A stretch of 64,000 bases of DNA from Bacteroidales bacterium (GTDB taxonomy: Bacteria > Bacteroidota > Bacteroidia > Bacteroidales > UBA12077), in contig JAQIBH010000090.1 in the NCBI GenBank assembly GCA_027859205.1, positions 1 to 64,000 on the forward strand, written 5' to 3'. Position 1 is the stretch's first letter. Each line of letters opens with the position of its first letter. Both the position numbers and the translations under genes were made by a program. This document shows, piece by piece, positions 1-49,080 of the stretch. A model generated the notes under the pieces. It was not told where the DNA came from and searched no databases. It worked only from the letters and a program-made list of their open reading frames with translations.

Positions 1-684
1 GACTAATCCATCACGATCTCTATCAAAAGGTCTGCTTGCTTTTTGTGGTTCATTTTCTTTAATTGAAAAAGCACTTAAACCATCAAAACTTCCCATTGAG
101 TGGTGGTTAATTTCTTGTCCACCACCACAAATAATAATATCTTGTAAACCACTTTTAATAAAGTTATATCCTATTCCAAGTGCATGTGAACCACTAGCAC
201 AAGCAGCACTTACGGTGAGATTTATTCCTCGTAGTTTAAATATAGTCGATAAATTCATTGTAATGGTAGAATTCATCGATTGAAAAATTGCTCCTGAACC
301 TAAAAGAGCAGTATCCTTTTTTTCTTTTAATAAATCATAAGAATTAACTATTGATTTGGCTGAGCTATCATTTCCATATAATATTCCAACATCGTTATTA
401 TCAAGAAAATCATCATCAATTTTTGCTTGATTTAAAGCTTCAAGGGTAGCAATATAAGCATATTCTCCTTCTTCGGCCAATCCTATTCGCTGACGACGTT
501 TTAATTTCCCCTTTAAATCTGGACGTTCAATTATACCTGTAAGACCTGAACGAAAGCCTAAATCTTTTCTTAATTGTTCAAATCCAACTCCAGAAGCACC
601 AACGTAAAGAGATTTATTTACTTCTTCAATATTTTTACCGATCGTAGAATAAATTCCCATTCCTGTTATTACAACTCTATTCAT
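1..684 (-). CDS. beta-ketoacyl-ACP synthase (KS), partial; C-terminus lies off the left edge
   Basis: Reverse-strand translation starts MNRVVITGMGIYSTIGKN and contains the active-site region VSAACASGSHALGIGYNFIKSG, typical of FabF/KS enzymes; open to window edge. Confidence 0.9.
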   Translation of the reverse strand, partial: MNRVVITGMGIYSTIGKNIEEVNKSLYVGASGVGFEQLRKDLGFRSGLTGIIERPDLKGKLKRRQRIGLAEEGEYAYIATLEALNQAKIDDDFLDNNDVGILYGNDSSAKSIVNSYDLLKEKKDTALLGSGAIFQSMNSTITMNLSTIFKLRGINLTVSAACASGSHALGIGYNFIKSGLQDIIICGGGQEINHHSMGSFDGLSAFSIKENEPQKASRPFDRDRDGLV

Positions 685-3285: not shown

Positions 3286-3786
3286 ATGAAAGAAAAAGAT
3301 GCTTACATAGAATATGAACCGCAACAACTGATAATGTATGTTGAAAAGGAAGACGGTACATTTGGTCCTATTCAAACAGGCTCGTTTATCTCAAAAAATT
3401 ACTTAGATGATTTTTGGGAGAAAATGCTTAAGCTAAGAAAATCTTTACTGGAACAGTTGAAAAATAATGAAATAACTTGCGTTTATTTTTATAAAATCAT
3501 TCATGATTTTAATGATGTTGAATTAGCTCGTAGGGCAGGAATTCCTATTTATAAAGTTAAGAAACATCAAAAAGTAAAATCATTCAAAAATATAAAGTTG
3601 TTGGATTTACAAAAATATGCTTATGCTTTTGATGTTCCCGTTTCAAACCTATTTCAAGCAGTAGTTGTTGATGATAACGAAAATAGGGCTGAGACAGAAT
3701 TAGAGAAACAACCAATAATTGTTAAGCAAATTAAAACAGATAATCCAAATTTAGTAATTACAAAAATAGAAGTAAATAAAAAATGA
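3286..3786 (+). CDS. HTH/XRE-like small protein, possible cluster regulator
   Basis: Helix-turn-helix-like segment (DFNDVELARRAGIPIYKVKKHQK...LQKYAYAFDVPVSNLF); ATGA overlap with next ORF. Confidence 0.6.
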   Translation: MKEKDAYIEYEPQQLIMYVEKEDGTFGPIQTGSFISKNYLDDFWEKMLKLRKSLLEQLKNNEITCVYFYKIIHDFNDVELARRAGIPIYKVKKHQKVKSFKNIKLLDLQKYAYAFDVPVSNLFQAVVVDDNENRAETELEKQPIIVKQIKTDNPNLVITKIEVNKK

Positions 3787-4796
3787 TAATAGAATCTTTT
3801 AATCATAAAATGGCTGCTCACTGCGAGTCTGGAACACTGACAGCATTGATAAAACATAAAGGACTTGAAATAAAGGAACCAATGATTTTTGGTTTAGGAA
3901 GCGGTATGTATTTTGGATATTTAAGTCGTACTCCTAATTTAAGCTTCCCAATGTTTATTTTAAGAACCAAACCTGGAAAGTTAAGGAAGAAAATTGCTAA
4001 AAGAACTGATATAAAATTTATAACTCAAAAATTCAAAGATCAAGAAAAAGCAGAACAGGAATTGGATCGACTAATTGGAGAAGATATTCCTGTTGCTTGC
4101 CAAGTTGATTTTTATTATATGGATTATATACCACAATGGGAAAGAGTTCATGCTAATATCCATTTTATTACAATTATTGGAAAAGAGGGAGACGAATATA
4201 TCGTTAGTGATAGCTATTACCCGAAATTAGCTAGAATACATAAAGATAAATTGCGAAAAGCTAGATTTGCAGGTGGGTATTTAGCTCCAAAAGGTTTTAT
4301 GTATTACATTGAATCTGTTCCAGAAAGTATCGATTATAAGCAATTAATTCCAGTAGCGATTAAAAATACAATAAACAATATGATTGGTGTTCAGCCACCT
4401 TTTATTGGAGTTAGAGGGATTCGAACTTTTGCTAAAAAACTTCAAGGATGGCCTAAATTAACGAGAGATGTTGATCATTTATCGCACGAGGTGATGAAAA
4501 TTAATGTTTTTCTTGAAGATCAAGGAACTGGTGGAGGTGGATTTCGATTTTTATATGCTACGTTTCTTCGTCAAGCTTCAGAAATTCTTAATAATAAAGA
4601 ATTAGATGAAATGTCAAAAAAGATGATGGAAATAGGAGATGGTTGGAGAAATATTTCTTACTTTGCAGCCAAGATCGGGAAAAACAGAGATTTAGAATCG
4701 GATAGACTTCAAGAACTTGGCCAATTGATAAATGAAAGAGCCGAAGCAGAAGATAAATTTTATAATGAATTAAAAACAGTAGTTAATAATATTTAA
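3783..4796 (+). CDS. BtrH N-terminal domain protein (butirosin BtrH-like, with C-terminal DUF4872-like region)
   Basis: MAAHCESGTLTALIKHKGLEIKEPMIFGLGSGMYFGYL matches BtrH_N (conserved Cys and GLGSG); ADSYYP-like VSDSYYPKLARI segment. Confidence 0.82.
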   Translation: MIIESFNHKMAAHCESGTLTALIKHKGLEIKEPMIFGLGSGMYFGYLSRTPNLSFPMFILRTKPGKLRKKIAKRTDIKFITQKFKDQEKAEQELDRLIGEDIPVACQVDFYYMDYIPQWERVHANIHFITIIGKEGDEYIVSDSYYPKLARIHKDKLRKARFAGGYLAPKGFMYYIESVPESIDYKQLIPVAIKNTINNMIGVQPPFIGVRGIRTFAKKLQGWPKLTRDVDHLSHEVMKINVFLEDQGTGGGGFRFLYATFLRQASEILNNKELDEMSKKMMEIGDGWRNISYFAAKIGKNRDLESDRLQELGQLINERAEAEDKFYNELKTVVNNI

Positions 4797-4808: not shown

Positions 4809-5084
4809 ATGGGAGAAAATGTTGGTACAGATCTGAAAGCGGATATTAAGAAAATGATTATTGAAACATTAAATATAGAAGATGTTACATCAGAGGATAT
4901 TGGTGATGAATTAATCCTTTTTGGTGGCGATAATACTTTAGGTTTAGATTCAATTGATGCAATAGAGCTTGTAATGGCACTTCAACGAGATTTTAAAGTT
5001 CGTCTTGATGATCAAAATCTTGCTCGTGAGGTATTAGTAAATGTTAATTCAATTGCAAATTTTATTCAAAGCAAATCAGAATAG
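4809..5084 (+). CDS. acyl carrier protein
   Basis: Phosphopantetheine site GLDSIDAIELVMALQ; 91 aa. Confidence 0.9.
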   Translation: MGENVGTDLKADIKKMIIETLNIEDVTSEDIGDELILFGGDNTLGLDSIDAIELVMALQRDFKVRLDDQNLAREVLVNVNSIANFIQSKSE

Positions 5085-5120: not shown

Positions 5121-6209
5121 ATGAAAAGTGCTTACCTGTTAGCCGGGATGAGACTATCTAGATTCATAAAAATTATTATGAAAAATGGAATGTGTTTTTA
5201 TCCTAAATATTTGGTGAGATTTCTATTTCTTTTTCAGAATGGAATATGGGCTTCAATTTTTCATAGAAAAGAAAAATCTATATATGGAGATAGAATTAAA
5301 ACGCATAAATTATCTGATGATCCAATAATAATAATAGGACATTGGAGAACAGGTAGTACTTTTTTACATCAGTTATTAGCTTTTGATTCCAATTTAGTAA
5401 CTTCAAATGTTTTTCAGGGGTCAATTCCCGACAGCTTTTTAACATCGAGAAAATCTTATGAACCAATTATGGGTAGAGCTCTTAAAGGTACTCGACCAAT
5501 GGATCAGGTAAAACTTAGTATGGATGAGCCTTTGGAGGACGAATATGCACTTTTCCGATTAACAAGTTATTCACCACTTGAACATGTAATTTTTCCAAAA
5601 TCAAAGGAATATTTTTTGAATCATTTTCCTGATTTTTTGCCCACAAACGAAAAACTTTTAAAGTGGAAAGAGGCCGTTAAATATTTTTATAAAAAGTTAA
5701 CGCTTGAAAATAATAAAGTTATTTTGATTAAAAATCCATTTCATTCTTTTAGGATTAAAGTATTAAATGAAATATTCCCAAATGCCAGATATATTCATAT
5801 TATTCGTCATCCACATAAAGTAGTACCTTCTACTATTCGTATGTGGAATATTGTTGGTACTCAAAACAGTATGAATAATAAATGGACAAAACCAAAAGTA
5901 CATGAAACAAGTAATTTACTAGTAAAGATGATGCAGAAGGTTGACTCAGACTTGTCGGAAATATCGAAAGATCGGTATTTCGAAATAAAGTTCGAGGATT
6001 TGGAGAAAGATCCGATAAATGAAATAAAATCAATTTATAAGCATCTAAATGTTGATTTTTCAAGTGAATTTGAGAAACAAATTAATAAGTTTTTAATTTC
6101 AGTAAAGGAATACCAAAAAAATAAATATATAATGCCGGAAGGCGATAAGCTGGAAATCAATAACATCCTAAAATCGTGGATGGCAGAGAAGAATTATAGT
6201 TTGGATTAG
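5121..6209 (+). CDS. sulfotransferase family protein
   Basis: PAPS-binding-like PIIIIGHWRTGSTFLHQLLA and 3'-phosphate-binding-like YIHIIRHPHKVVPSTIRMW. Confidence 0.85.
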   Translation: MKSAYLLAGMRLSRFIKIIMKNGMCFYPKYLVRFLFLFQNGIWASIFHRKEKSIYGDRIKTHKLSDDPIIIIGHWRTGSTFLHQLLAFDSNLVTSNVFQGSIPDSFLTSRKSYEPIMGRALKGTRPMDQVKLSMDEPLEDEYALFRLTSYSPLEHVIFPKSKEYFLNHFPDFLPTNEKLLKWKEAVKYFYKKLTLENNKVILIKNPFHSFRIKVLNEIFPNARYIHIIRHPHKVVPSTIRMWNIVGTQNSMNNKWTKPKVHETSNLLVKMMQKVDSDLSEISKDRYFEIKFEDLEKDPINEIKSIYKHLNVDFSSEFEKQINKFLISVKEYQKNKYIMPEGDKLEINNILKSWMAEKNYSLD

Positions 6210-6264
6210 ATTATTTTTTTGATAATTTTATCCGATTGAAAATAAAGAAAATAAGAGTATATAT

Positions 6265-7539
6265 ATGAAATTTCAGTTAATATTTCCAAAATGGAGAAAG
6301 CTTGAGGGGCAAACAACTTTTAACTTACCACCTCATGGAGCAGTAGTTTTTGCAGCAACAATACCAGATTATGTTGAAGTTGAGTTTATTGATAATAATC
6401 TTGAGGAACTTAAATATGACGATGATGTTGATTTTGTTGGCATCTCGATGCTATTGACCACTCAAATTAAAAACGGATGGGCAATTGCAGATGAATACAG
6501 GAAACGTGGTAAAAAAGTTATATTCGGTGGTATAGCAACAATGTTACATGCCGAAGAAACAATGCTGCATGCGGATTCTGTTTTTCTTGGTGAGGCCGAA
6601 AGTCATATGGATAAGGTATTCAGTGATTTTAAAAACGGCGAATTAAAGCAAGTATATAATCATATGAATGATTTGCCTCCAATAGAAATTGTGGGTCCAG
6701 CTCGTCGCGATTTATATAAACGCGAATTATATTACCACAAAGGAGTGCAAATGGTTGATTTATTTCATGCCTCTCGTGGTTGTAAATATAGCTGTTATCC
6801 TTGTGCAGTATCCTATTTAGGAGGAAGAAATTTTCGTCCAAGACCAATTGATAAAGTTGTTGAAGAGCTTGCTACAATTGAAAATAATAGACTGTTTATT
6901 GTCGATAACTCATTGGCACAAGATACACAGTGGGAAAAAGATTTGTTTAAGGAAATGATACCCTTTAAGAAAAAATGGGTTAGTCATACTATCGAAGATA
7001 AACCGGAAGTTTTGGATTTGGCCGCTCAGGCCGGTGCATGGTACGTTTATCAAGCGGTTTTCGATACTTCTGATTATATTAGAAGACGCGTTAAACAATA
7101 TCATGATTATGGAATTGGTGTTGAAGGTACAATCCTTTTGGGCTTGGATAATCAAACAGAAGATGATATAAAAAGGTTAATTGATTTCTTATTAGAAATT
7201 GATCTTGATTTGGCGGAATTTACAGTATTGGCTCCATTTCCACATACAAAGGCGTATGTTGATTTAGTAAAACAAAACCGTATCTTTAATAAAGATTGGA
7301 ACGATTATAACGCTGGGCAGGTGGTATATCAACCAAAACATATGAGTCCTGAGAGATTACAGGAATTGTATCAATATGCGTGGGATACATTTTATAAAGA
7401 TGAATCTCAAGAAGAAAAAATGTTTAAGCTTTTGAAAAAAGTAGTTTCTCGTGAAATAGAAGATGGAACTTTCAGAAAACCTGTAAAAGATTTATCAAGA
7501 TTAAGCTTTGGTAAAAATGTTAAACATAAAATTTCGTAA
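6265..7539 (+). CDS. B12-binding domain / radical SAM protein
   Basis: N-terminal cobalamin-binding-like fold (DFVGISMLLTTQI...KVIFGGIATMLHAEE) then ASRGCKYSCYPCAVSYLGG (CxxxCxxC). Confidence 0.9.
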   Translation: MKFQLIFPKWRKLEGQTTFNLPPHGAVVFAATIPDYVEVEFIDNNLEELKYDDDVDFVGISMLLTTQIKNGWAIADEYRKRGKKVIFGGIATMLHAEETMLHADSVFLGEAESHMDKVFSDFKNGELKQVYNHMNDLPPIEIVGPARRDLYKRELYYHKGVQMVDLFHASRGCKYSCYPCAVSYLGGRNFRPRPIDKVVEELATIENNRLFIVDNSLAQDTQWEKDLFKEMIPFKKKWVSHTIEDKPEVLDLAAQAGAWYVYQAVFDTSDYIRRRVKQYHDYGIGVEGTILLGLDNQTEDDIKRLIDFLLEIDLDLAEFTVLAPFPHTKAYVDLVKQNRIFNKDWNDYNAGQVVYQPKHMSPERLQELYQYAWDTFYKDESQEEKMFKLLKKVVSREIEDGTFRKPVKDLSRLSFGKNVKHKIS

Positions 7540-7553
7540 TAAATATTTATAAC

Positions 7554-7931
7554 ATGAACACTAAAGTTGATGATTATCAAGATCAGGTTTATAATTTTAA
7601 TGGATTGTGGGATCTCCCTTCAATTTGTGGATTGAAAATTGTAAAAAAAGGAAAGAATACTTTTATTATTGTAACAGATTTATATGACGAAAATCCTGGA
7701 ACATCGATAACAGAATGGAATACAAAGCTTGCAAAAGAGATTTGTGATAAATATAGCATTGATTATAATCAGATAATTTATATTGAACATACTCCTAATA
7801 AACAAACGAAACTATCATTTAATCAAGAATCGTTTTTTAAAGTTAGCTTTGATATTTATGATGATAAATTTGAAAATCCTCAATGGCAAGAAATAACAAA
7901 AGAAGAAATTGATAAATTATTAACTGTTTAA
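7554..7931 (+). CDS. hypothetical protein in biosynthetic operon
   Basis: Tightly packed 125-aa ORF between radical SAM and ACP genes; no motif recognised. Confidence 0.75.
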   Translation: MNTKVDDYQDQVYNFNGLWDLPSICGLKIVKKGKNTFIIVTDLYDENPGTSITEWNTKLAKEICDKYSIDYNQIIYIEHTPNKQTKLSFNQESFFKVSFDIYDDKFENPQWQEITKEEIDKLLTV

Positions 7932-7942
7932 ATTATAATATA

Positions 7943-8245
7943 ATGGCTCAAATTACAGATAAAACGAGGGATGAAGTTAAGGAAGTTGTTTTGGATTTTT
8001 TTGCTGAGGAATGTGAAATGGAGCTTGATGAAATATCTGAAGATTCAAATATCATAAGTGATTTAGATGGCGACTCTTTAATGTTTTTAGAATTAATTGA
8101 AATATTCAAAAAGAAGTTTAATTTAAATATAGAATTAAAAACAATTGGGAAATACTCTATAAAGAATCCGGTTCAAACTATTGGCGAATTAATTGATATG
8201 CAATTGCTTATTATTGAGCATGAAAACAACATTCTTGATATGTAA
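7943..8245 (+). CDS. acyl carrier protein (second)
   Basis: DLDGDSLMFLELIEIFKKKF phosphopantetheine-site motif; 100 aa. Confidence 0.88.
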   Translation: MAQITDKTRDEVKEVVLDFFAEECEMELDEISEDSNIISDLDGDSLMFLELIEIFKKKFNLNIELKTIGKYSIKNPVQTIGELIDMQLLIIEHENNILDM

Positions 8246-8254
8246 AACAATCAC

Positions 8255-8626
8255 ATGATTTTTGGATGTGGTATTGATATAGAAGAAATAGAAAGATTTA
8301 ATAAACATTATTTTGATAAAGGTATATTATCGAATTTAGTTTATGATATTTTTACATCTAAAGAAATTGAAAACTTTTCAGTTTTTGGGAAAGAAGCCTT
8401 TTTAAAAGGCTTTTCTTTTAAAGAAGCATTTTATAAAGCACTAGATAATACAGATGTAGATTTCAAAGACATAGAAATTATTTTTTCAAACGATAAGGAT
8501 TTTGAGATTTTTACCTCAAATAGAATAAAGGAGATACTTATGAAGGAAAGAATTACTGATATCACTGCAAGTTTTCATATAAGTGACCAGTACGTTGTTT
8601 TCAAGGTTTTGTTAAAAAAATTATAA
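8255..8626 (+). CDS. 4'-phosphopantetheinyl transferase, AcpS-type
   Basis: GCGIDIEEIERF and FSFKEAFYKAL match AcpS-family metal/CoA-binding motifs. Confidence 0.88.
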   Translation: MIFGCGIDIEEIERFNKHYFDKGILSNLVYDIFTSKEIENFSVFGKEAFLKGFSFKEAFYKALDNTDVDFKDIEIIFSNDKDFEIFTSNRIKEILMKERITDITASFHISDQYVVFKVLLKKL

Positions 8627-8629
8627 ATA

Positions 8630-9559
8630 ATGAGTAATAAAACAGCTTTTGTTTTTCCTGCATTTATTACTGAGTTTACTGAAAAGGAATTAGATTTTCT
8701 AAGCGAAAATTCCATTGATTTTACTAATTATTTGCAAAGAGCCTCTTCAGCTATAAATCTTGATTTACCAGAGTTTTCATATAGTTCAAATAATTATAGA
8801 AACAACGAGTTAAAGTCGCAACTTTTGGCATATTTATTTAGTTGTGCTTTTTTTGATATAGCAGAAAAAAAAGGTGTTGTGCCTCATTTTGTAGTTGGAT
8901 ATAGTATGGGGATATACGCATCATTATATGCTGCGAAATCTATTTCCTTAGAAGAAGGTGTAAAATTAATTCATAAGGCTTATACAATTGTTCATGAATT
9001 AACTAAAACTGAAATTTATGGAATGGGTGCAATCATAGGATTGCCAATAAAGGATATTGAGTATATTATAACTGAAAGTAAATTAGATGCAGATATTATT
9101 AATATAAATAATGAACATTCATTTGTTATTGCGGGAAAAAAGAAAGAAGTGAATTTGGTTCTTGAAAAGGCAAAAGAGGAGGGTGCGATGTCAACAGTTG
9201 AACTTACTGTTAATACACCTTATCATTCAAAATATTTATCAAAATTTACAGATAGCCTTAAACAATATATTGATACTATTCCTATAAGCAATGCTGAGAT
9301 TCCAATTATATCTACCTATGATCAAAGAGAAATAGTTAAAGTATCTGAAATTAAATCTGAATTAATATTTAATTTAACATGTAAAATTAATTGGTATAAA
9401 ACAGTGCAGAAATTGCTTAAGAAAGGTGTAAGTGATATTTATGAATGTGGTGCCGGAAAGGATTTGAAGAAAATTTCAAGATTCATTAAAGGTGATTATC
9501 GTATGAACTTAATTTATAAAATATTAAAGGAGCCTAAAAAAGACTCCTTTTCTATATGA
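8630..9559 (+). CDS. ACP S-malonyltransferase, FabD-like
   Basis: VGYSMGIYASLYAA (GxSxG), NTPYHSKYLS with catalytic-His-like HS; FabD-like length. Confidence 0.9.
   Translation: MSNKTAFVFPAFITEFTEKELDFLSENSIDFTNYLQRASSAINLDLPEFSYSSNNYRNNELKSQLLAYLFSCAFFDIAEKKGVVPHFVVGYSMGIYASLYAAKSISLEEGVKLIHKAYTIVHELTKTEIYGMGAIIGLPIKDIEYIITESKLDADIININNEHSFVIAGKKKEVNLVLEKAKEEGAMSTVELTVNTPYHSKYLSKFTDSLKQYIDTIPISNAEIPIISTYDQREIVKVSEIKSELIFNLTCKINWYKTVQKLLKKGVSDIYECGAGKDLKKISRFIKGDYRMNLIYKILKEPKKDSFSI
9531..9556 (+). terminator. Hairpin terminator overlapping the end of the malonyltransferase gene
   Basis: AAAGGAGcctaaaaaagaCTCCTTTTctat inverted repeat. Confidence 0.55.
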
Positions 9560-11021: not shown

Positions 11022-12365
11022 TTAAATAACATCTGTTCCTTTTTTTATTAGCCACAACTTCCCAACATTTTCATAAAATTTTTCAAGTGGAAGTTTTGTT
11101 TTTAATACACTATTAAAGAAATTATATTTCGAAAGGTCATAATCAATTATTTGATTTTTTATTTCATCATAAAAAGGAGTGCCAGGCATAGGAGTAAGGA
11201 TAGTATAACCAGCATAAGTTACTTTATGTGAATTAGTATATTCCGATAAAGCATTAAAATCAGAATCATCATAATCGTTCGGAATAACATAATTTCCACG
11301 AAGCATAATTCCATTTTGATGAAAAATATTTATTGCTTCATGAATTAATTTCGCATCGGAACTTTTGTTATATCTTTTTAGTTCTTCTTCTCGAAAGGAT
11401 TCAAATCCACAAATTACTACTTTTAAGCCACCTTTTGCTAGCTTTTCAATCAATTTAGGATATTTAACAGCTGTATCTGTTCTAATATCCATTATAAATG
11501 TTTTCTTAATTCCTTCTTCCTTAATTCGATCAAATAGCTTGTCAATAGTTGAGGTATCTACAATTGTATTTGCATCGGCAAACCTAACAATAGGATAATC
11601 GTCGGTTTGTTTTAACTCTGTAATTATACTTTCGACGTTTCGTTTTAAATACTTCCCGTCGTACTGGCACCATATCGAGCAAAATGTACATTTATAAGGG
11701 CAACCAAGAGATGTGAAAAGGTAGGTTGATGGATATGGAGAATTCCCGACTTTATACGTTTCTTTCCATCTTTCTAAGTGTTTTCTGTTAGGAAATAAGA
11801 AATCCTTGTTTGCAGAATTAAATTCTATTGTTTTGGCTTTTGATTTTTCAAGTCTTCCTGCTCTATTAAAAATGACTCCTGGAATGTTTTCAATAGGAGT
11901 ATTTAGTTCTTTCGCTTTAATAACTTCTTTAAATGTGTGTGCCGATTGCCCGGGAAGAATTATATCAACCGCAGGATCAGTAAAATCATTTGTTGAAAGG
12001 GTTGCATGTAATCCGCCTACTACCGTTAATATATTTGGATTAAACTCCTTTGTTGCTTGTAAAATTTCAATTGCATAATAAAATTCCGATGCTATTGTGG
12101 TTGTTCCTACAACATCGGGCTTATGTTCTTTTAATAATTTTGTAACTAATTCTTTTAATGGAGGAGTCGTTTCTGGGTGAAGATCATATTCACCTTTAGT
12201 ATCAAAAACTACAACATCGTGGTCTTTTACTGCTTCAGCTACAGTAAGTAAACCTAACGGAGGGCCAATTAATTTTTTATGAATATACTTTTTTGCTTCT
12301 TCTGGTGCAGAAGCTAAAATCATGTTATGTGGTGATCGAGGTGTATTTATTAAAAGTATTTTCAT
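11022..12365 (-). CDS. B12-binding radical SAM protein
   Basis: N-terminal B12-like domain (DVVGTTTIASEFYYAIEI...VVGGLHATL) and SLGCPYKCTFCSIW cluster motif. Confidence 0.9.
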   Translation of the reverse strand: MKILLINTPRSPHNMILASAPEEAKKYIHKKLIGPPLGLLTVAEAVKDHDVVVFDTKGEYDLHPETTPPLKELVTKLLKEHKPDVVGTTTIASEFYYAIEILQATKEFNPNILTVVGGLHATLSTNDFTDPAVDIILPGQSAHTFKEVIKAKELNTPIENIPGVIFNRAGRLEKSKAKTIEFNSANKDFLFPNRKHLERWKETYKVGNSPYPSTYLFTSLGCPYKCTFCSIWCQYDGKYLKRNVESIITELKQTDDYPIVRFADANTIVDTSTIDKLFDRIKEEGIKKTFIMDIRTDTAVKYPKLIEKLAKGGLKVVICGFESFREEELKRYNKSSDAKLIHEAINIFHQNGIMLRGNYVIPNDYDDSDFNALSEYTNSHKVTYAGYTILTPMPGTPFYDEIKNQIIDYDLSKYNFFNSVLKTKLPLEKFYENVGKLWLIKKGTDVI

Positions 12366-20412: not shown

Positions 20413-21687
20413 TTATTTTGTTACGTGCATATTTAGTGCTCCAGAAACAGCTTCCTCAAGTGTTTTATCAGGAATTCCATCAGTTGCACTCCTATTATGA
20501 CAACCAAGACATGAATATGCTGGACTTAATGAAGCTGGTCTTGTTGCGTCATCTCGAACTGCAGAACCATCTTCAGTAAACATTGAGTTAGCATCTACTG
20601 TAATTTTCATTAAATGAGAATGTACATCACCTTCAAAGGTACTCTCACCTCTTTTAGCACCTGATTTTGCAGCATATGGCATATGACAATCTATACAAGT
20701 AGCACTTGCACCATGATTAGTTGTTGCTTCTTGAGTAGAATGACAAGTTGCACAATCTTTTGTAATACCATCACCGTCCCATATAACTCGTTTGTGAGGA
20801 TCATGACAAGTTATACAATCCATTCCGTTTGCGCCATGAGCAGTTTTTGTAAATTCATCCCATTGTTCATGATGCTTAATAAATCCACCACTAGCATCTA
20901 TTTTATTTGCATAACCTCTATTATGACATGTTCCACAAAGGAATGTTACGTCGTCACCTAATTCATTTGGAGTTTGAACAATACCATCAACTTCTAATCC
21001 GCCAATTGAATTATCAAGATGAGCAAATTCGTATACTCTATCAATATTATCTGATGAAGGATCTGCAATATGGTCGCTACCAGGTCCATGACAAGCTTCA
21101 CAACCTACACCACCTTCAGTGAAATCACCTAGTCCATCAACTCCTTCAAGCCAAGTGCCATCTTGAGTTCCACCGGTAGTATGACATTTAAAACAGCTAT
21201 AGTTGTATGTTTTTTTATCAGCTGGATGGTAATTTCCCCAACCGTGATTTTCGCCTCCATAAAAATTTATCTGGTTAACACCGAACCCTGGGTTAAATTC
21301 ACTTTCAGCAGTACCAATTATATCGCCATCCGTACCAACGAATCTAGTTTTCCAACCATATCCACCAACAACTCCTGCAATATTATCCCATGTTACGCTA
21401 CCATCAGTTAAATTGTTTAACCAAGTACTTTGAAAGTTATCAACTTCTACTGGGTAAACTGGTCCCAAACTACCATCAGTAATTGTAAATTTGTATGGAT
21501 GTCCAGATGCCGACCAGTCAGAGTATTTTTCCGAGTGACATGATTGACACGATTCTGAGCCAACAAATTCCTTCTCTGTTGGATTTGGTGTTGGATTTGG
21601 ATCGTCATCTTTTGAACAACTTGTAAATCCAATCGACAGAGCTAAAAATGCTATTGCCATAAATCTAATAATTCTTCTTTTTTCCAT
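20413..21687 (-). CDS. octaheme c-type cytochrome lipoprotein
   Basis: Eight CXXCH motifs (CQSCH, CFKCH, CEACH, CGTCH, CITCH, CATCH, CIDCH, CLGCH) and an N-terminal lipobox-like ALSIGFTSCSKDDDPNP. Confidence 0.93.
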   Translation of the reverse strand: MEKRRIIRFMAIAFLALSIGFTSCSKDDDPNPTPNPTEKEFVGSESCQSCHSEKYSDWSASGHPYKFTITDGSLGPVYPVEVDNFQSTWLNNLTDGSVTWDNIAGVVGGYGWKTRFVGTDGDIIGTAESEFNPGFGVNQINFYGGENHGWGNYHPADKKTYNYSCFKCHTTGGTQDGTWLEGVDGLGDFTEGGVGCEACHGPGSDHIADPSSDNIDRVYEFAHLDNSIGGLEVDGIVQTPNELGDDVTFLCGTCHNRGYANKIDASGGFIKHHEQWDEFTKTAHGANGMDCITCHDPHKRVIWDGDGITKDCATCHSTQEATTNHGASATCIDCHMPYAAKSGAKRGESTFEGDVHSHLMKITVDANSMFTEDGSAVRDDATRPASLSPAYSCLGCHNRSATDGIPDKTLEEAVSGALNMHVTK

Positions 21688-26517: not shown

Positions 26518-27591
26518 ATGAGAAAACATATTTTTAATGCAGGTCCGTGTAAGTTGTCAGATTCATTATTGAAGAATACATCTGAGGCAATCGTTGAACT
26601 TAATGGTTTAGGTCAATCATTAATTGAAATTTCGCACAGAAGTAAAGATTTTCAAGCTGTAATGGATGAGACAGTTGAATTAATGAAAGAAGTTTTGAGT
26701 ATACCTGAAGGATATTCAGTTGTATTTTTAGGAGGTGGAGCAAGTCTTCAATTTGCTATGATTCCTTATAACTTTATGCAATCAAAATCATTTTATGTAA
26801 ATACAGGAACTTGGTCGTCAAAAGCGATTAAAGAAGCAAAAATGTGGGGCGAGGTTGTTGAAATATCTTCAAAGGATAAAAATTTCTCTTATTATCCAAA
26901 GGGATATGATATTCCTAATGATGTTGATTATGTTCATATTACAACAAACAATACAATTTCTGGAACAGAAATTTTTGAAGATCTAGACGTTAAAGCACCT
27001 TTATTTGCAGATATGTCTTCTGATTTTTTAAGTCGTCCGGTTGATGTTTCTAAATACGATATGATTTATGGTGGAGCCCAAAAGAATTTAGGCCCGGCAG
27101 GTGTTGCTTTTATAATTATTAAAGATGCTTTGTTAGAAAAAGTTGTAGCAGATCGTAAAATTCCAACAATGTTGCAATACGGAATTCATATCGAAAAAGG
27201 ATCAATGTATAATACTCCTCCTGTATTTAATATTTTTGCTGTTCGTGAAACATTGAAATGGGTTAAAGCAATGGGCGGGGTAAAAGAAATGGAAAAATTA
27301 GCTATTAAAAGAGCCGAGTTGCTTTATAATGCAATCGATAGCAGTAATATGTTTGTTAGTCCAATTGCAAAAGAAGATCGTTCAAGAATGAACATTGTTT
27401 TTATTATGAAAGATAAATACAAAGATATTGAGGCTGAATTTATAGCTTTTGCTGGAGAAAGAAATTGTGTGGGAGTTAAGGGTCACCGTTCAGTTGGTGG
27501 ATTCCGTGCTTCTACATACAATGCATCTACAATTGAAGATGTTCAAGCATTGGTTACTGCGATGAAAGATTTCGAAGCAAAAAACGCATAA
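26518..27591 (+). CDS. serC: phosphoserine aminotransferase
   Basis: FNAGPCKLSDSLL, ISHRSKDF, MIYGGAQKNLGPAG, GHRSVGGFRASTYNA. Confidence 0.96.
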   Translation: MRKHIFNAGPCKLSDSLLKNTSEAIVELNGLGQSLIEISHRSKDFQAVMDETVELMKEVLSIPEGYSVVFLGGGASLQFAMIPYNFMQSKSFYVNTGTWSSKAIKEAKMWGEVVEISSKDKNFSYYPKGYDIPNDVDYVHITTNNTISGTEIFEDLDVKAPLFADMSSDFLSRPVDVSKYDMIYGGAQKNLGPAGVAFIIIKDALLEKVVADRKIPTMLQYGIHIEKGSMYNTPPVFNIFAVRETLKWVKAMGGVKEMEKLAIKRAELLYNAIDSSNMFVSPIAKEDRSRMNIVFIMKDKYKDIEAEFIAFAGERNCVGVKGHRSVGGFRASTYNASTIEDVQALVTAMKDFEAKNA

Positions 27592-27608
27592 ATTAATATG
27601 TAAAATAT

Positions 27609-27636
27609 AAGACTCAAAGCATTTACTTTGAGTCTT
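27609..27636 (+). terminator. Hairpin between serC and serA
   Basis: AAGACTCAAAG-catttA-CTTTGAGTCTT followed by TTTA. Confidence 0.65.
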
Positions 27637-27663
27637 TTTATTAATCCTTAAAACCAAAGAATT

Positions 27664-28587
27664 ATGAGAAAAGTACTCGTTGCAACTGAAAAGCCATTTG
27701 CTCCTGCAGCAGTTGCTAAAATTAAGGAAGTTTTAGATAAAGCTAATTATGAATTAGTCTTATTAGAAAAATACACAGATAAGTCTGAATTGTTAAAGGC
27801 AGTCGAAAATGTTGATGCCATGATCGTACGTTCAGATAAGGTTACAAAAGAAGTAATTGATGCATCAAATAATTTAAAAATTGTTATAAGAGCCGGCGCT
27901 GGTTACGACAATCTCGATTTGGAAGCTTGTACTGCTAAAAACGTAGTAGCTATGAATACTCCAGGTCAAAATTCAAATGCTGTAGCAGAACTTGCCATTG
28001 GTATGATGATTATGATTGCTCGTGGAAACTACAATGGTAAAGCTGGTACTGAGTTACGAGGTAAAAAATTAGGTATACACGCTTACGGTAATGTTGGACG
28101 ATATGTAGCTCAAATTGCAAAAGGATTTGGAATGGAAGTCTATGCATTTGATCCATTCGTTGATGGCGATTTAATTAAAAAGGATGGTGTAACTCAACTT
28201 GATTCTGTTGAAGAATTATATTCAACTTGTCAGTATTTATCATTACATATTCCTGCAAACGATAAAACAAAAAACTCAATTGGATTTGATTTATTAAGCA
28301 AAATGCCAAAGAATGGAACTTTAGTTAATACAGCACGAAAGGAAGTTATTAACGAAGATGAATTACTGAAAGTTTTTACTGAAAGAGAAGATTTCAGATA
28401 TGTATCTGATTTAGCACCCGATTGCATAGATGAAATTAAAATGAAATTTGATGGTAGATTTTTCTTTACTCCAAAGAAAATGGGAGCACAAACTGCTGAA
28501 GCCAACATTAATGCAGGTGCTGCTGGTGCACATCAAATTATTGATTTCATCGAAAGCGGAAATATAACTTTTAAAGTAAATAAATAA
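27664..28587 (+). CDS. serA: D-3-phosphoglycerate dehydrogenase-like 2-hydroxyacid dehydrogenase
   Basis: Follows serC; IRAGAGYDNLDLEACTAKNVVAMNTPGQNSNAVAELAIGMMI, GKKLGIHAYGNVGRYVAQIAKGFGMEVYAFDPF. Confidence 0.93.
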   Translation: MRKVLVATEKPFAPAAVAKIKEVLDKANYELVLLEKYTDKSELLKAVENVDAMIVRSDKVTKEVIDASNNLKIVIRAGAGYDNLDLEACTAKNVVAMNTPGQNSNAVAELAIGMMIMIARGNYNGKAGTELRGKKLGIHAYGNVGRYVAQIAKGFGMEVYAFDPFVDGDLIKKDGVTQLDSVEELYSTCQYLSLHIPANDKTKNSIGFDLLSKMPKNGTLVNTARKEVINEDELLKVFTEREDFRYVSDLAPDCIDEIKMKFDGRFFFTPKKMGAQTAEANINAGAAGAHQIIDFIESGNITFKVNK

Positions 28588-44421: not shown

Positions 44422-47400
44422 TTAGTTAATTTCTTTATTTATACCTTTTTCTTCACTCTGTTGTTCATTTTCCTTTGGGTTATCTTCTATATTTTTTTCT
44501 TTTGGATCATTGTCAAGTTCTTTTTCAATTTGTTCAATTTGTAGTTTTTCTTGTTCCAATCTTTTTAGTTCTTCTGCTTTTGCTTCTTGAGCTTCCTCAA
44601 ATAACCTCATATTACGTAGGAATTGAACTTTGTTTTGTTCAGTTGCAATAATGTATCTATATGGTGTTTCTCCTTTTGGTGTTTTCAGTTTTCTTGATCT
44701 TTTCCTTATATTTTGTATTACATTAACAAAGTTTTTATTATTTGAGAGTGTTTGCATAACACCTCGAGTATAAGAAAAGTAATAATAATCTTTATTTGGA
44801 AGTTCAAAATAAAACTTCATAATATCACCACTTCTTCTTTTTAGAATTTGTAAGTATCCATTTACGTATTTATTAATAGGTTTATTATTTATGGTAGCAA
44901 TTCCAATTTTCCCATAATTAAGATAAGATCCTGTTTCGGTATACCAATTAAATTTCACACTTCCTAAAAGAACTGTATGTTGAGTCGATTTTGGTAATTT
45001 TGCTTCGTTGGTATACAGCATTAATTGATCTTTAAACACTTCATAGTCATTTTTTCCTACTAATTCGTTCATGTTTTTTTCAAAAAACCTTGAAGTTAGA
45101 CTCATCGGATCGAGACTTTGAGCAGACTGTAATTCGTACACTAAAGTATCAAGAGCTGCATCAGAGATAAATAAATCAAGACCTAAAATTAATTTGGTTT
45201 TGATTTCATTTTTCTCAAGTTTATGATTTACTGAACCTACCGGAGATAATTTTATTTGTCCTAAATCAATTCCTAAATTAACTTTGCCTTCTCCATGCTG
45301 TAAACAAAGATCTTTTTGTAAAGTAACTACATTCCCCGAAGTGTCAGGGTTTAAATGTTTGGATCTTTCTGCAATAATATATTTTTTTGAATTTTTGTTA
45401 TAAAATAAAAATCCAGTCGCATCTACTAATGCAATATCGTTTGGATCTCTTCTTCTGTCTAAAAATCTTGAATAAATATGTGAAGAGTCTATTGTTATAA
45501 AACTTGCAGCATGTAATCCTCTGCCACTAATACTTTTTGTTGTTTTTGATATCGGAATATAAATACTATCTGGATTTATTTCACTTTTGAAATAGGCATA
45601 ATTTGGTTCTTTTACCGGGCAACCATGTTCTAATTTAACGCCTCCATTAAATGTTAAACGTCTTCTGTTGGCATATAAAATAACATCTCCTCGATAATTA
45701 TAAACGGGGCTTAATGTGAAATTATCTTCTTTTATAATTTTACTTTTAGCTACAGTCTGGTATGAACTGTCTACAAAAATATCTGTAAAATGAATGTTTT
45801 GGATTTCTTTATTTTCGTCAATATAGTCATAGTCTCCTGTTCCAAGATATTTGTAGCGACCTTTTATATTTATTTTAGCCTTATATATTTTATGATATCT
45901 ATTCTTTGTATTAGCAATTATCTCAGAATTTTTTAAGGTTTGAATTTCGGCAACATGCCCAATGGTTACATTATTTTTATCGGGGAATATAAGTGCATCG
46001 GCTACTTTAATGTATTCAACTTGAGAAGCGCTAATAATGCTATCTCTCAATTTATATGTTGATTTTGTTGATGCAAATCGAAGCGAATCCTGACTGCGAT
46101 GAATTGACATGAATAAGGCACCAGGTAGATTATCATCTTTTAATTTAGCTAATTCTCGAATTTCTTGTGAGGCTGTTGAATCAACTTGCGGACTAGACTC
46201 AATAGCTATTTCATCATTTGCTATATTCCAATCAAATTTGTCCAGGTAGCTTAAATACAAATGCTTTGGAAACTTTGCAATTGTAAATGGTTCGTTAGAG
46301 TTAAAATTTCCTATTTGGGTTGAAAAATCAACTTTCCCATTCACATTTTCAGTTATAAAATTGAAATCAGTCTTTTTTAATGATTTTAAACTGAATGTTG
46401 TTGAATCTGAGTTAAACGAATTAGATTCAAAATTAAAAAAGTTAGATTTTAATTCGGCCTTTTCAAGATTCATTGTACCTGAGCCAGTTAATCCAATTGG
46501 TTGAATAATAAGTGAGCCTGAAAGAAGAGAATTATTTCCAAACATAATGAACGGATCTCCTTTTTGCTCTGCGTACATAATATTTTTATATGGATACCAG
46601 CTAATATAAACTTCGCTTGAGCTCAATTCCGGAAACTCGATTCCGGAGGTTCGCTGCGCAAGTGTAAAGTCATTCGCATGAATATTTGTTGAATCGGGGA
46701 AGAAAATAATATCATCAGTTTGCGCTTTCGCTGTTAAATATTCCAAAGTTCCAGAGCCTTTTAAACCTTTGTTGCTTAAATCAATAATATTGTAGTATGT
46801 TCCTTTACCTTCATAAAGAGGAAATCCTTCATCAGGAGTATTTCGCTTAAAGCCAAGTGAATTATCAGGACGCTGATAAATTGCATCGTTAAAAGGTGGG
46901 AATATATTTGAAGAATTAAAACGACCGTCGAATCTTAAGCCCTTTGAAGAAAAATTGTCCAAACTGTCTATTACAAATGGATCAAGTTCAAAATAGAAAC
47001 TGTCTCTTTTATAAATACCATCGTAAATTTGCGGATCATCGTAGTATACAAAGGAATTATCATAACTTTTAAAAATAGGATATTCAGGAAATCGTTTAAA
47101 TCCCGATTTGTTATATGGTTTATCAATATATAAATCTCCTGTAATTACTTCAATTTTATTTTGGATCAAGTCCAAAAGAGGATTATTATACATATCGCGT
47201 TCTTCTGTTTGAACCTTTATTTCTAGTGAGTTTATATTCGAAAGGCTGATTCTAAAAGTGTCGTAATGAAAATAGAATTCTTGACCATAAAATGTAAATA
47301 ATCCAGCTTCAACAATTCCAGCAAAACTAAAATCCCTGTTCTTTTGCATTATTATTTGGTTATCTTGCGGGTAAATGGCAACATTCTGGGAATCAGATAG

Positions 47401-49080
47401 AAATATTTGAGGTATTCCTTTTATTTCGAGATTGTAGTTATTCAAATCTAGTACACCATTATGATTTAAACCTTCGGTTATTGAATTAAACTTTATTACA
47501 TCATAGTCAATCTTGCCATATCGAGCATCCATAAAATCATAAAGTTTTTGCTTAATTATAGCTTCATCTTTATCGGCATCATAAAAAACAAATCCATCAA
47601 CACTTAGATACATTAACATTTGTTTAATCTGGTAATCATCATATTTTAGAAAACGCGCTAATTCTTCTCCTGAAAATGTTTCTGAGTTTATTTTTTTCGA
47701 AAAGTTTTTTAAAACATAAAGTGGATGAAATTCATCTCTTAGCATAATTCTTTCAAACTCCATCAGATTAAAAAAGTTTGAAGAAGTAAATGTTGCATTT
47801 CCAATTGCTCCACCTCGCTTTTTCGTTAGATAAATTTTATCTTCATTTATTCGCCATAGCAATTGATCAAAACTCATTGATATTTGATGGTATGAATTAA
47901 AGTATGGACTTTTTGATACAATTCTTTCTGATGGAGTTAAAGATACCTCCTTTAGTTTCGAAGTATAATTTAATGAAACCCCAGGGTGGAAAATCGAATC
48001 ATTTTTTAAACGTATTGTTATTTGTGCGTTATTGGAAACAATTCGACCTTGCTTAAACATATAAGTATTTGAAACAGCAGTAATTATTGTTGTATCATTT
48101 TTTTGAATATAAAGATGTGCTAGATTATTTTGATCTCCAGAACCAAGTAAGTTAGCACCTTTCATTGAAAATCCACCATCGTAATTTATGTCAGGATAAA
48201 TATTTTCTATGTGAAACCTCTTCTGATATGAATTGAACTCAGGGTAAATAGCTCTGTCAGCAGTTATTACGTGAACTACTTGATCAGATAATCTTCCTAG
48301 TATTGGTTCGTCAAAATAAATTTTATTATAGAAGGTTACAGAATCAGCTGTATATCCTGATTTTGTGAAATTTATTTTATAATTTTTTAGAATGGCATTT
48401 ACACTATTTGCTTCATAATCGGCTCTTTCCCAGTTAACAATACCATTTATTCCATGCCATTTATTAGTTGTAGGATAAAACTCGCCAGAGGTTTCAAAAA
48501 TATTAATAGAATCTTTTTTTATCCTACAAGTCAAGTTAGTTTTTTTAAATACTATTTTTAATTCTTTATCAACTATAATTTCAAAATCTTTTGAGCTTGT
48601 TTCCCAATTTGTTGAGTATGAGCTGTATAAAATATTTCTTTCAATTAATGATTTTGAATTATTAAAATAACCAGTGATTACTCTTAGTGGGAATTTTTCG
48701 TTTTCAAAAATATAATATATACCTTTTTCCCAGTTATCGTAATGTTTTAAGGCTTCTTCTGAACGATAAAAGGCCATCACTATATCAAAGTATTTTGTAA
48801 AATGAGGATTACGACGGGCTTTGTTTTTTAACATTAAATTACAAACATCAATAAATCGATCTTTAATATCATTAGAATAGTAACCTATATTCCATCTTTC
48901 GAGGAATATTTTTAGACTATCCTCTTCGTGTTCTGGTAAATTTCTATTAACAAATCCTTCAAATTGTTCAATAAATATTGTTGAGTCTTTTTGAAATTCC
49001 TTTATATCTTGAGCAGATGTGGTTATTGCAATTAAACTCAAAATAGTAAAGAAGAAACTTTTAAATAAATAATTTTTCAT
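44422..49080 (-). CDS. very large (1552 aa) exported protein of unknown function
   Basis: Uninterrupted ORF with signal peptide MKNYLFKSFFFTILSLIAITTSAQ; beta-rich; Glu/Lys-rich C-terminal tail. Confidence 0.88.
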   Translation of the reverse strand: MKNYLFKSFFFTILSLIAITTSAQDIKEFQKDSTIFIEQFEGFVNRNLPEHEEDSLKIFLERWNIGYYSNDIKDRFIDVCNLMLKNKARRNPHFTKYFDIVMAFYRSEEALKHYDNWEKGIYYIFENEKFPLRVITGYFNNSKSLIERNILYSSYSTNWETSSKDFEIIVDKELKIVFKKTNLTCRIKKDSINIFETSGEFYPTTNKWHGINGIVNWERADYEANSVNAILKNYKINFTKSGYTADSVTFYNKIYFDEPILGRLSDQVVHVITADRAIYPEFNSYQKRFHIENIYPDINYDGGFSMKGANLLGSGDQNNLAHLYIQKNDTTIITAVSNTYMFKQGRIVSNNAQITIRLKNDSIFHPGVSLNYTSKLKEVSLTPSERIVSKSPYFNSYHQISMSFDQLLWRINEDKIYLTKKRGGAIGNATFTSSNFFNLMEFERIMLRDEFHPLYVLKNFSKKINSETFSGEELARFLKYDDYQIKQMLMYLSVDGFVFYDADKDEAIIKQKLYDFMDARYGKIDYDVIKFNSITEGLNHNGVLDLNNYNLEIKGIPQIFLSDSQNVAIYPQDNQIIMQKNRDFSFAGIVEAGLFTFYGQEFYFHYDTFRISLSNINSLEIKVQTEERDMYNNPLLDLIQNKIEVITGDLYIDKPYNKSGFKRFPEYPIFKSYDNSFVYYDDPQIYDGIYKRDSFYFELDPFVIDSLDNFSSKGLRFDGRFNSSNIFPPFNDAIYQRPDNSLGFKRNTPDEGFPLYEGKGTYYNIIDLSNKGLKGSGTLEYLTAKAQTDDIIFFPDSTNIHANDFTLAQRTSGIEFPELSSSEVYISWYPYKNIMYAEQKGDPFIMFGNNSLLSGSLIIQPIGLTGSGTMNLEKAELKSNFFNFESNSFNSDSTTFSLKSLKKTDFNFITENVNGKVDFSTQIGNFNSNEPFTIAKFPKHLYLSYLDKFDWNIANDEIAIESSPQVDSTASQEIRELAKLKDDNLPGALFMSIHRSQDSLRFASTKSTYKLRDSIISASQVEYIKVADALIFPDKNNVTIGHVAEIQTLKNSEIIANTKNRYHKIYKAKINIKGRYKYLGTGDYDYIDENKEIQNIHFTDIFVDSSYQTVAKSKIIKEDNFTLSPVYNYRGDVILYANRRRLTFNGGVKLEHGCPVKEPNYAYFKSEINPDSIYIPISKTTKSISGRGLHAASFITIDSSHIYSRFLDRRRDPNDIALVDATGFLFYNKNSKKYIIAERSKHLNPDTSGNVVTLQKDLCLQHGEGKVNLGIDLGQIKLSPVGSVNHKLEKNEIKTKLILGLDLFISDAALDTLVYELQSAQSLDPMSLTSRFFEKNMNELVGKNDYEVFKDQLMLYTNEAKLPKSTQHTVLLGSVKFNWYTETGSYLNYGKIGIATINNKPINKYVNGYLQILKRRSGDIMKFYFELPNKDYYYFSYTRGVMQTLSNNKNFVNVIQNIRKRSRKLKTPKGETPYRYIIATEQNKVQFLRNMRLFEEAQEAKAEELKRLEQEKLQIEQIEKELDNDPKEKNIEDNPKENEQQSEEKGINKEIN

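Follow-up and report, generated by a model that had tools for sequence, protein, structure and literature searches.

The window analysed here, 64,000 nucleotides long, is the start of a contig (C190) of a metagenome-assembled Bacteroidales genome, and its first base cuts a β-ketoacyl synthase gene of the flexirubin set (1–684, minus strand; PF00109, 8.5e-27). The same strand carries genes for the flexirubin SDR reductase FlxB (709–1437; NF053542, 405.7 bits, cut-off 340) and the flexirubin tyrosine ammonia-lyase FlxA (1443–2981; NF053541, 836 bits, cut-off 700). Transcribed divergently lies an operon with the gene order DarG'-DarH'-ACP1-ST-rSAM-p125-ACP2-ACPS-AT, all on the plus strand and spaced −4 to 55 bp apart, where ST denotes a sulfotransferase and rSAM a radical SAM enzyme of the B12-binding type. 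The operon comprises a DarG'-like protein that represents a second DarG paralogue (3286–3786; NF053545, 46 bits, below the cut-off of 170), a BtrH-type acyltransferase paralogue, DarH' (3783–4796), the acyl carrier protein ACP1 with a GLDS site (4809–5084; PF00550, 4.1e-7), the 362-residue, PAPS-dependent ST (5121–6209; PF13469), the 424-residue rSAM of an unnamed family (6265–7539; PF02310), the orphan protein p125, a putative partner of rSAM (7554–7931), a second carrier protein, ACP2, with a DGDSL site (7943–8245; PF00550, PP-binding, 3.1e-8), a holo-ACP synthase-type phosphopantetheinyl transferase, ACPS (8255–8626; PF01648, 1.3e-11), and a FabD-type stand-alone AT (8630–9559; PF00698, 1.2e-12; TIGR00128, 149 bits, below cut-off). 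The initial annotation had described ST and rSAM as lying between two ACP genes on the same strand with short gaps, and the open reading frames, Pfam matches and gap lengths bear this out; p125, between the rSAM gene and ACP2, was absent from it, and the cluster type was left unnamed. A second B12-binding radical SAM gene identified with Pfam lies beside the cluster (11022–12365, minus strand), and its homologues are conserved beside these clusters in 26 loci, often head-to-head with a GT2 gene.

By their sequences, the surroundings are a flexirubin-type (aryl polyene-dialkylresorcinol) cluster of a variant found in Bacteroidales, since FlxA, FlxB and DarH exceed the curated NCBIfam cut-offs. 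Contig C128 of the same assembly starts inside the ketosynthase that is cut at base 1 of the window and carries genes for an ACP, an LpxL-like AT, a TIGR04072 radical SAM protein, FabZ, a classic DarG-DarH pair, an ABC transporter, a thioesterase, several KS proteins, LolA, GT2, MMPL, CrtI-like and AAT proteins, and the 4-coumarate-CoA ligase FlxY (27307–28578; 711 bits, cut-off 520). DarA-DarB are found on C180, which is not a cluster contig (DarB, 605 bits, cut-off 550, adjoining a DarA-like gene with 43% identity). The ends of C190 and C128 overlap (window 5–546 and L128:1–542) at only 86.6% identity, so that the two contigs may stem from different strains mixed in the assembled genome; for the joined order we rely on relatives whose contigs are longer, in which the cluster is continuous and the intact orthologue of the truncated ketosynthase is followed by ACP3, the LpxL-like AT, the TIGR04072 radical SAM gene and FabZ. 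This last B12 radical SAM gene, of the ‘ladderane’ lipid family, lies inside the cluster of the genus (L128:2295–3653, 426 bits, cut-off 360; also L005:534–1892) at the position that DarA-DarB occupy in Flavobacterium-type clusters, while DarA-DarB of the genus are located elsewhere.

The closest known systems are the flx/dar clusters of Flavobacterium johnsoniae and Chitinophaga pinensis (PMC3992019). Orthologues of FlxA, FlxB, KS, ACP, the LpxL-like AT, FabZ, DarG, DarH and the ABC transporter are common to the present system and DarH-bearing genomes of the same class, as are those of KS-CLF, LolA, GT2, MMPL, CrtI-like, AAT and FlxY, in closely similar order. In contrast, none of four DarH regions from other families of the class carries rSAM, p125 or ST beside the flexirubin genes, and these four have DarA-DarB where the genus of the window has the TIGR04072 gene, the core order being otherwise that of the known clusters. 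We considered whether the rSAM gene is a plain replacement of DarA-DarB and rejected this, as DarA-DarB exist on another contig and adjoin the rSAM gene in Tannerella. In the literature library searched, no paper links flexirubin to a sulfotransferase, or to radical SAM in a gene cluster. In an even sample of 297 genomes of the phylum, an rSAM orthologue was found in this genome only, while classic DarH was found in 23 (this one and 22 others); together with the co-occurrence counts given below, this indicates that the rSAM gene marks a Bacteroidales branch of flexirubin clusters, of which those with ST are a subset.

The genes added to the flexirubin core fall into two modules, DarG'-DarH'-ACP1-ST and rSAM-p125, which in this genus share one operon with ACP2, ACPS and AT; ST travels with DarG', DarH' and ACP1, and rSAM with p125. 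Although DarH' passes NF053550 (324.8 bits against a cut-off of 300), it sits in a clade apart from classic DarH: a tree of 43 proteins separates 12 rows of classic DarH from 31 of DarH' with a support of 100/100, a result of which only the split itself is used, as the program warns that long branches meet at the join. Classic rows, including the C128 copy of this genome, adjoin DarB or an ABC transporter. ST, on the other hand, is encoded at most 3 kb downstream of DarH' in 26 of the 31 DarH' rows, and in relatives, too, ACP1 stands between the two. Two of the other five rows have an ST fragment at the end of the locus and two loci end before that point; the fifth (L063) truly has no ST, which counts against the tailoring reading given below.

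The more constant companion of the rSAM gene is p125 rather than ST. It follows the rSAM gene in 15 of the 16 genus loci and in 42 of 62 others, with exceptions mostly in Tannerella; among 98 relatives it occurs in 21 genomes, each of which also encodes an rSAM orthologue. Outside the genus, the rSAM-p125 pair is often found inside the flexirubin operon, between the CrtI-like/AAT genes and FlxY. Searches of p125 against Pfam, NCBIfam and PDB sequences gave no match, nor did its AF2 model (pLDDT 86) match a PDB fold at E ≤ 0.001, and its dN/dS is 0.12–0.27; co-occurrence suggests that it is a partner of rSAM. Across 78 relatives outside the genus, treated as independent genomes and with each positive from a different family, rSAM orthologues occur in five, and FlxY exceeds its cut-off in 11, four of them shared with the rSAM-positive five (p=1.1e-3). 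The three that have p125 are all within these five (p=1.3e-4). Conversely, the two genus genomes without an rSAM orthologue (G010 and G015) are also without ST, p125, DarB and FlxY, and among 24 rSAM-positive genomes taken from loci, FlxY is above cut-off in 19 and FlxA in 17.

These distributions agree with the claim of the initial annotation that both genes are cluster-associated tailoring genes, and we put it at slightly better than even that ST and rSAM are tailoring genes of a Bacteroidales variant of the flexirubin-type pathway whose product is a sulfated, further modified flexirubin. Alternatively, the operon from DarG' to AT may make a separate lipid or polyketide and merely neighbour the flexirubin genes: it is divergently transcribed, brings its own full carrier-protein equipment (ACPs, ACPS and AT), and encodes in DarH' a deeply diverged paralogue. 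We regard this as unlikely, as the operon is without a ketosynthase, rSAM-p125 elsewhere lies within the flexirubin operon itself, and the presence of rSAM tracks that of FlxY. The initial annotation had named homologues that occur apart from the cluster as evidence against its own proposal, and for rSAM this is partly the case: in Tannerella, the rSAM gene lies away from FlxA and FlxY, but those genomes do have both.

The assignment of rSAM as a B12-dependent radical SAM enzyme follows from a CxxxCxxC motif (C173, C177, C180) that is invariant in 32 homologues and from an N-terminal B12-binding domain, and cobalamin binding is accordingly only predicted; the Pfam match to the B12-binding domain is weak (34.9 bits, cut-off 32.1) and that to Radical_SAM falls below cut-off (26.8 against 29.5 bits). 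Across the rSAM and ST genes, dN/dS ranges over 0.04–0.09, which for rSAM indicates strong purifying selection. No NCBIfam model, those of named methylase families included, reaches its cut-off, and rSAM differs in family from the TIGR04072 protein encoded in the same cluster, as it scores just 53.5 bits against that model's cut-off of 360. Its AF2 model (pLDDT 85; values are low near the cluster loop, 172–188) finds as its best Foldseek match AprD4 (6fd2; E 1e-16, TM 0.74/0.70), which is also the best match by sequence profile (9.4e-6). AprD4, at about 15% identity to rSAM, is a radical SAM 1,2-diol dehydratase that needs an aminoglycoside substrate and works together with a reductase, AprD3 (PMC5461906); we found no AprD3-type reductase in the ST-rSAM operon. 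The next folds are the methylases MgmA, TsrM and CysS (Foldseek E 8e-14 to 1e-8), which share the domain layout of rSAM at lower similarity than AprD4 and act on a protein glutamine, tryptophan and a pantetheine-bound aryl ether, respectively. According to reviews, B12 radical SAM enzymes are mostly methylases (PMC11659888), with ring contraction, ring formation and thioether formation also found in the class (PMC11659888, PMC13331322). We therefore see methylation as the single likeliest reaction of rSAM, at a little under an even chance, with a non-methylating radical reaction nearly as likely as a class. C-methylation, as proposed in the initial annotation, is not borne out by the nearest fold and sequence, and a best fold match that is no methylase, together with the weak B12 domain match, weakens the sulfated-pigment reading.

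A special case of that reading, for this enzyme, is that rSAM stands in for FlxJ and places a methyl group on the hydroxyphenyl ring of the polyene. The ring methyl of flexirubin derives from methionine (PMC3992019), most B12 radical SAM enzymes methylate (PMC11659888), and at E ≤ 1e-20 no FlxJ homologue is found in this genome or in 12 of 16 other sampled members of the genus. However, rSAM coexists with a FlxJ-type gene in three clusters (L030, L038 and L044) and four genomes (G004, G005, G011 and G013), and its nearest fold is that of AprD4, so that we consider the substitution improbable as an account of rSAM; within this genus it may hold, but it does not do so generally. A relative (30% identity to rSAM) encoded on a Citrobacter portucalensis plasmid (NZ_CP134684.1, 50732–68066) is part of a cassette in which five radical SAM genes accompany those for a GH3-like protein, a PAP2 phosphatase and a fatty acid desaturase, and was rejected as a guide to function, the cassette giving no functional clue.

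In ST, the Sulfotransfer_3 match (1e-31, 111 bits, cut-off 27) comes with intact PAPS-binding loops: 27 homologues retain the 5' loop HWRTGST and the 3' residues R229 and S237, and a dN/dS of 0.07–0.09 indicates strong purifying selection. The PAPS-type sulfation suggested in the initial annotation is thus plausible, and so, judging from gene content, is the supply of PAPS in this organism, as an APS kinase gene is found in this and most genomes of the genus; the latter argument is weakened, though, because APS kinase is widespread across the order (70 of 98 genomes) and here is a fragment at a contig edge. The annotation had also raised sulfation as a means of activating decarboxylation. In such a scheme, ST would resemble the sulfotransferases of CurM and olefin synthase (OLS), so that a β-hydroxyacyl chain on ACP1 would be sulfated and a thioesterase would drive its decarboxylation to a terminal alkene. 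ACP1 lies directly upstream of ST in nearly all loci, and the CurM and OLS sulfotransferases (4gbm, 4gox), which share with ST the PAPS sulfotransferase fold and a gene beside a carrier protein, are among its only four PDB sequence matches. They differ, however, in being domains of modular polyketide synthases and are more distant from ST: with the family profile, CurM (9e-10) and the olefin-synthase domain come after the stand-alone enzymes 2z6v (3e-16) and 2zq5 (2e-13). There is also no adjacent sulfotransferase-thioesterase fusion, and the sole thioesterase-like gene observed belongs to the flexirubin genes on C128. We consider decarboxylative activation to be quite improbable and, given that 2z6v and 2zq5 outrank CurM and the olefin-synthase domain, prefer plain O-sulfation as the predicted activity of ST.

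The co-occurrence of the pair, also proposed in the initial annotation, holds in one direction. All three ST-positive relatives among the 78 outside the genus are within the five with rSAM (p=1.3e-4), and ST lies directly upstream of the rSAM gene in 15 of the 16 genus loci, in five loci outside it (L027, L030, L038, L062 and L080), in a fragment (L069) and in a further genome (G070, locus L102). The two genes are nevertheless not an obligate pair: ST is near the rSAM gene in just 13 of the 62 non-genus loci, and two genomes (G058 and G071) have an rSAM gene and no ST. That they are unrelated neighbours joined by chance fits the frequent occurrence of rSAM without ST, but is scarcely credible given that their adjacency recurs in those five loci outside the genus and that every ST-positive genome is rSAM-positive.

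Flexirubin pigments are known above all from aerobic Bacteroidota. Compared with these well-known aerobic producers, which appear not to do so, the Bacteroidales variant probably adds to its pigment a sulfate and a second change by radical chemistry, through ST and rSAM. In the pathway that we propose, classic DarH would join the polyene acyl chain to the dialkylresorcinol, as its annotation in the BtrH-related acyltransferase family suggests, and DarH' with its own ACP1 would carry out another acyl transfer within this pathway. ST would then move the sulfate of PAPS to a hydroxyl of the DarH' branch or of the finished pigment, most likely a phenolic one on the resorcinol or on the polyene ring; gene order makes a flexirubin-type product the best reading of its substrate. 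rSAM together with p125 may change an unactivated carbon of the pigment or of a precursor, and the pathway would be expected to end in an outer-membrane flexirubin that is sulfated and modified further.

The extra modules attach to the flexirubin core ST, linked to the second DarH, and rSAM, which is strongly conserved and comes with its orphan partner, neither having a curated family name. If the proposal is correct, a novel anionic pigment lipid of the outer membrane is to be expected, and the cluster provides a defined genetic setting for assaying an unassigned B12 radical SAM family. As a broader and more tentative suggestion, which we hold to be rather less likely than its opposite, Bacteroidales of anoxic habitats would make a sulfated flexirubin-type pigment by way of the second DarH, with p125 and a B12 radical SAM enzyme of an undescribed kind completing it, while a wider set, including Tannerella forsythia, would make a related radical SAM-modified pigment with no sulfate; the tie to anoxic life is read from the hosts, which are mostly Bacteroidales metagenome-assembled genomes. 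The question of the pigment would then become testable in a cultured oral anaerobe.

In T. forsythia, the rSAM orthologue lies beside DarG-DarH (L023 and L028, 10001–11281 and flanks), with DarA-DarB alongside in L023, and the genome encodes FlxA and FlxY above cut-off, adjoining each other; judging by these genes, this oral anaerobe apparently has a complete flexirubin-type pathway. Elsewhere in the window, a 1552-residue open reading frame (44422–49080) has no Pfam match at 1e-5, and the gene at 20413–21687 encodes a multihaem cytochrome c with MtrC/MtrF-like and c554-like matches.
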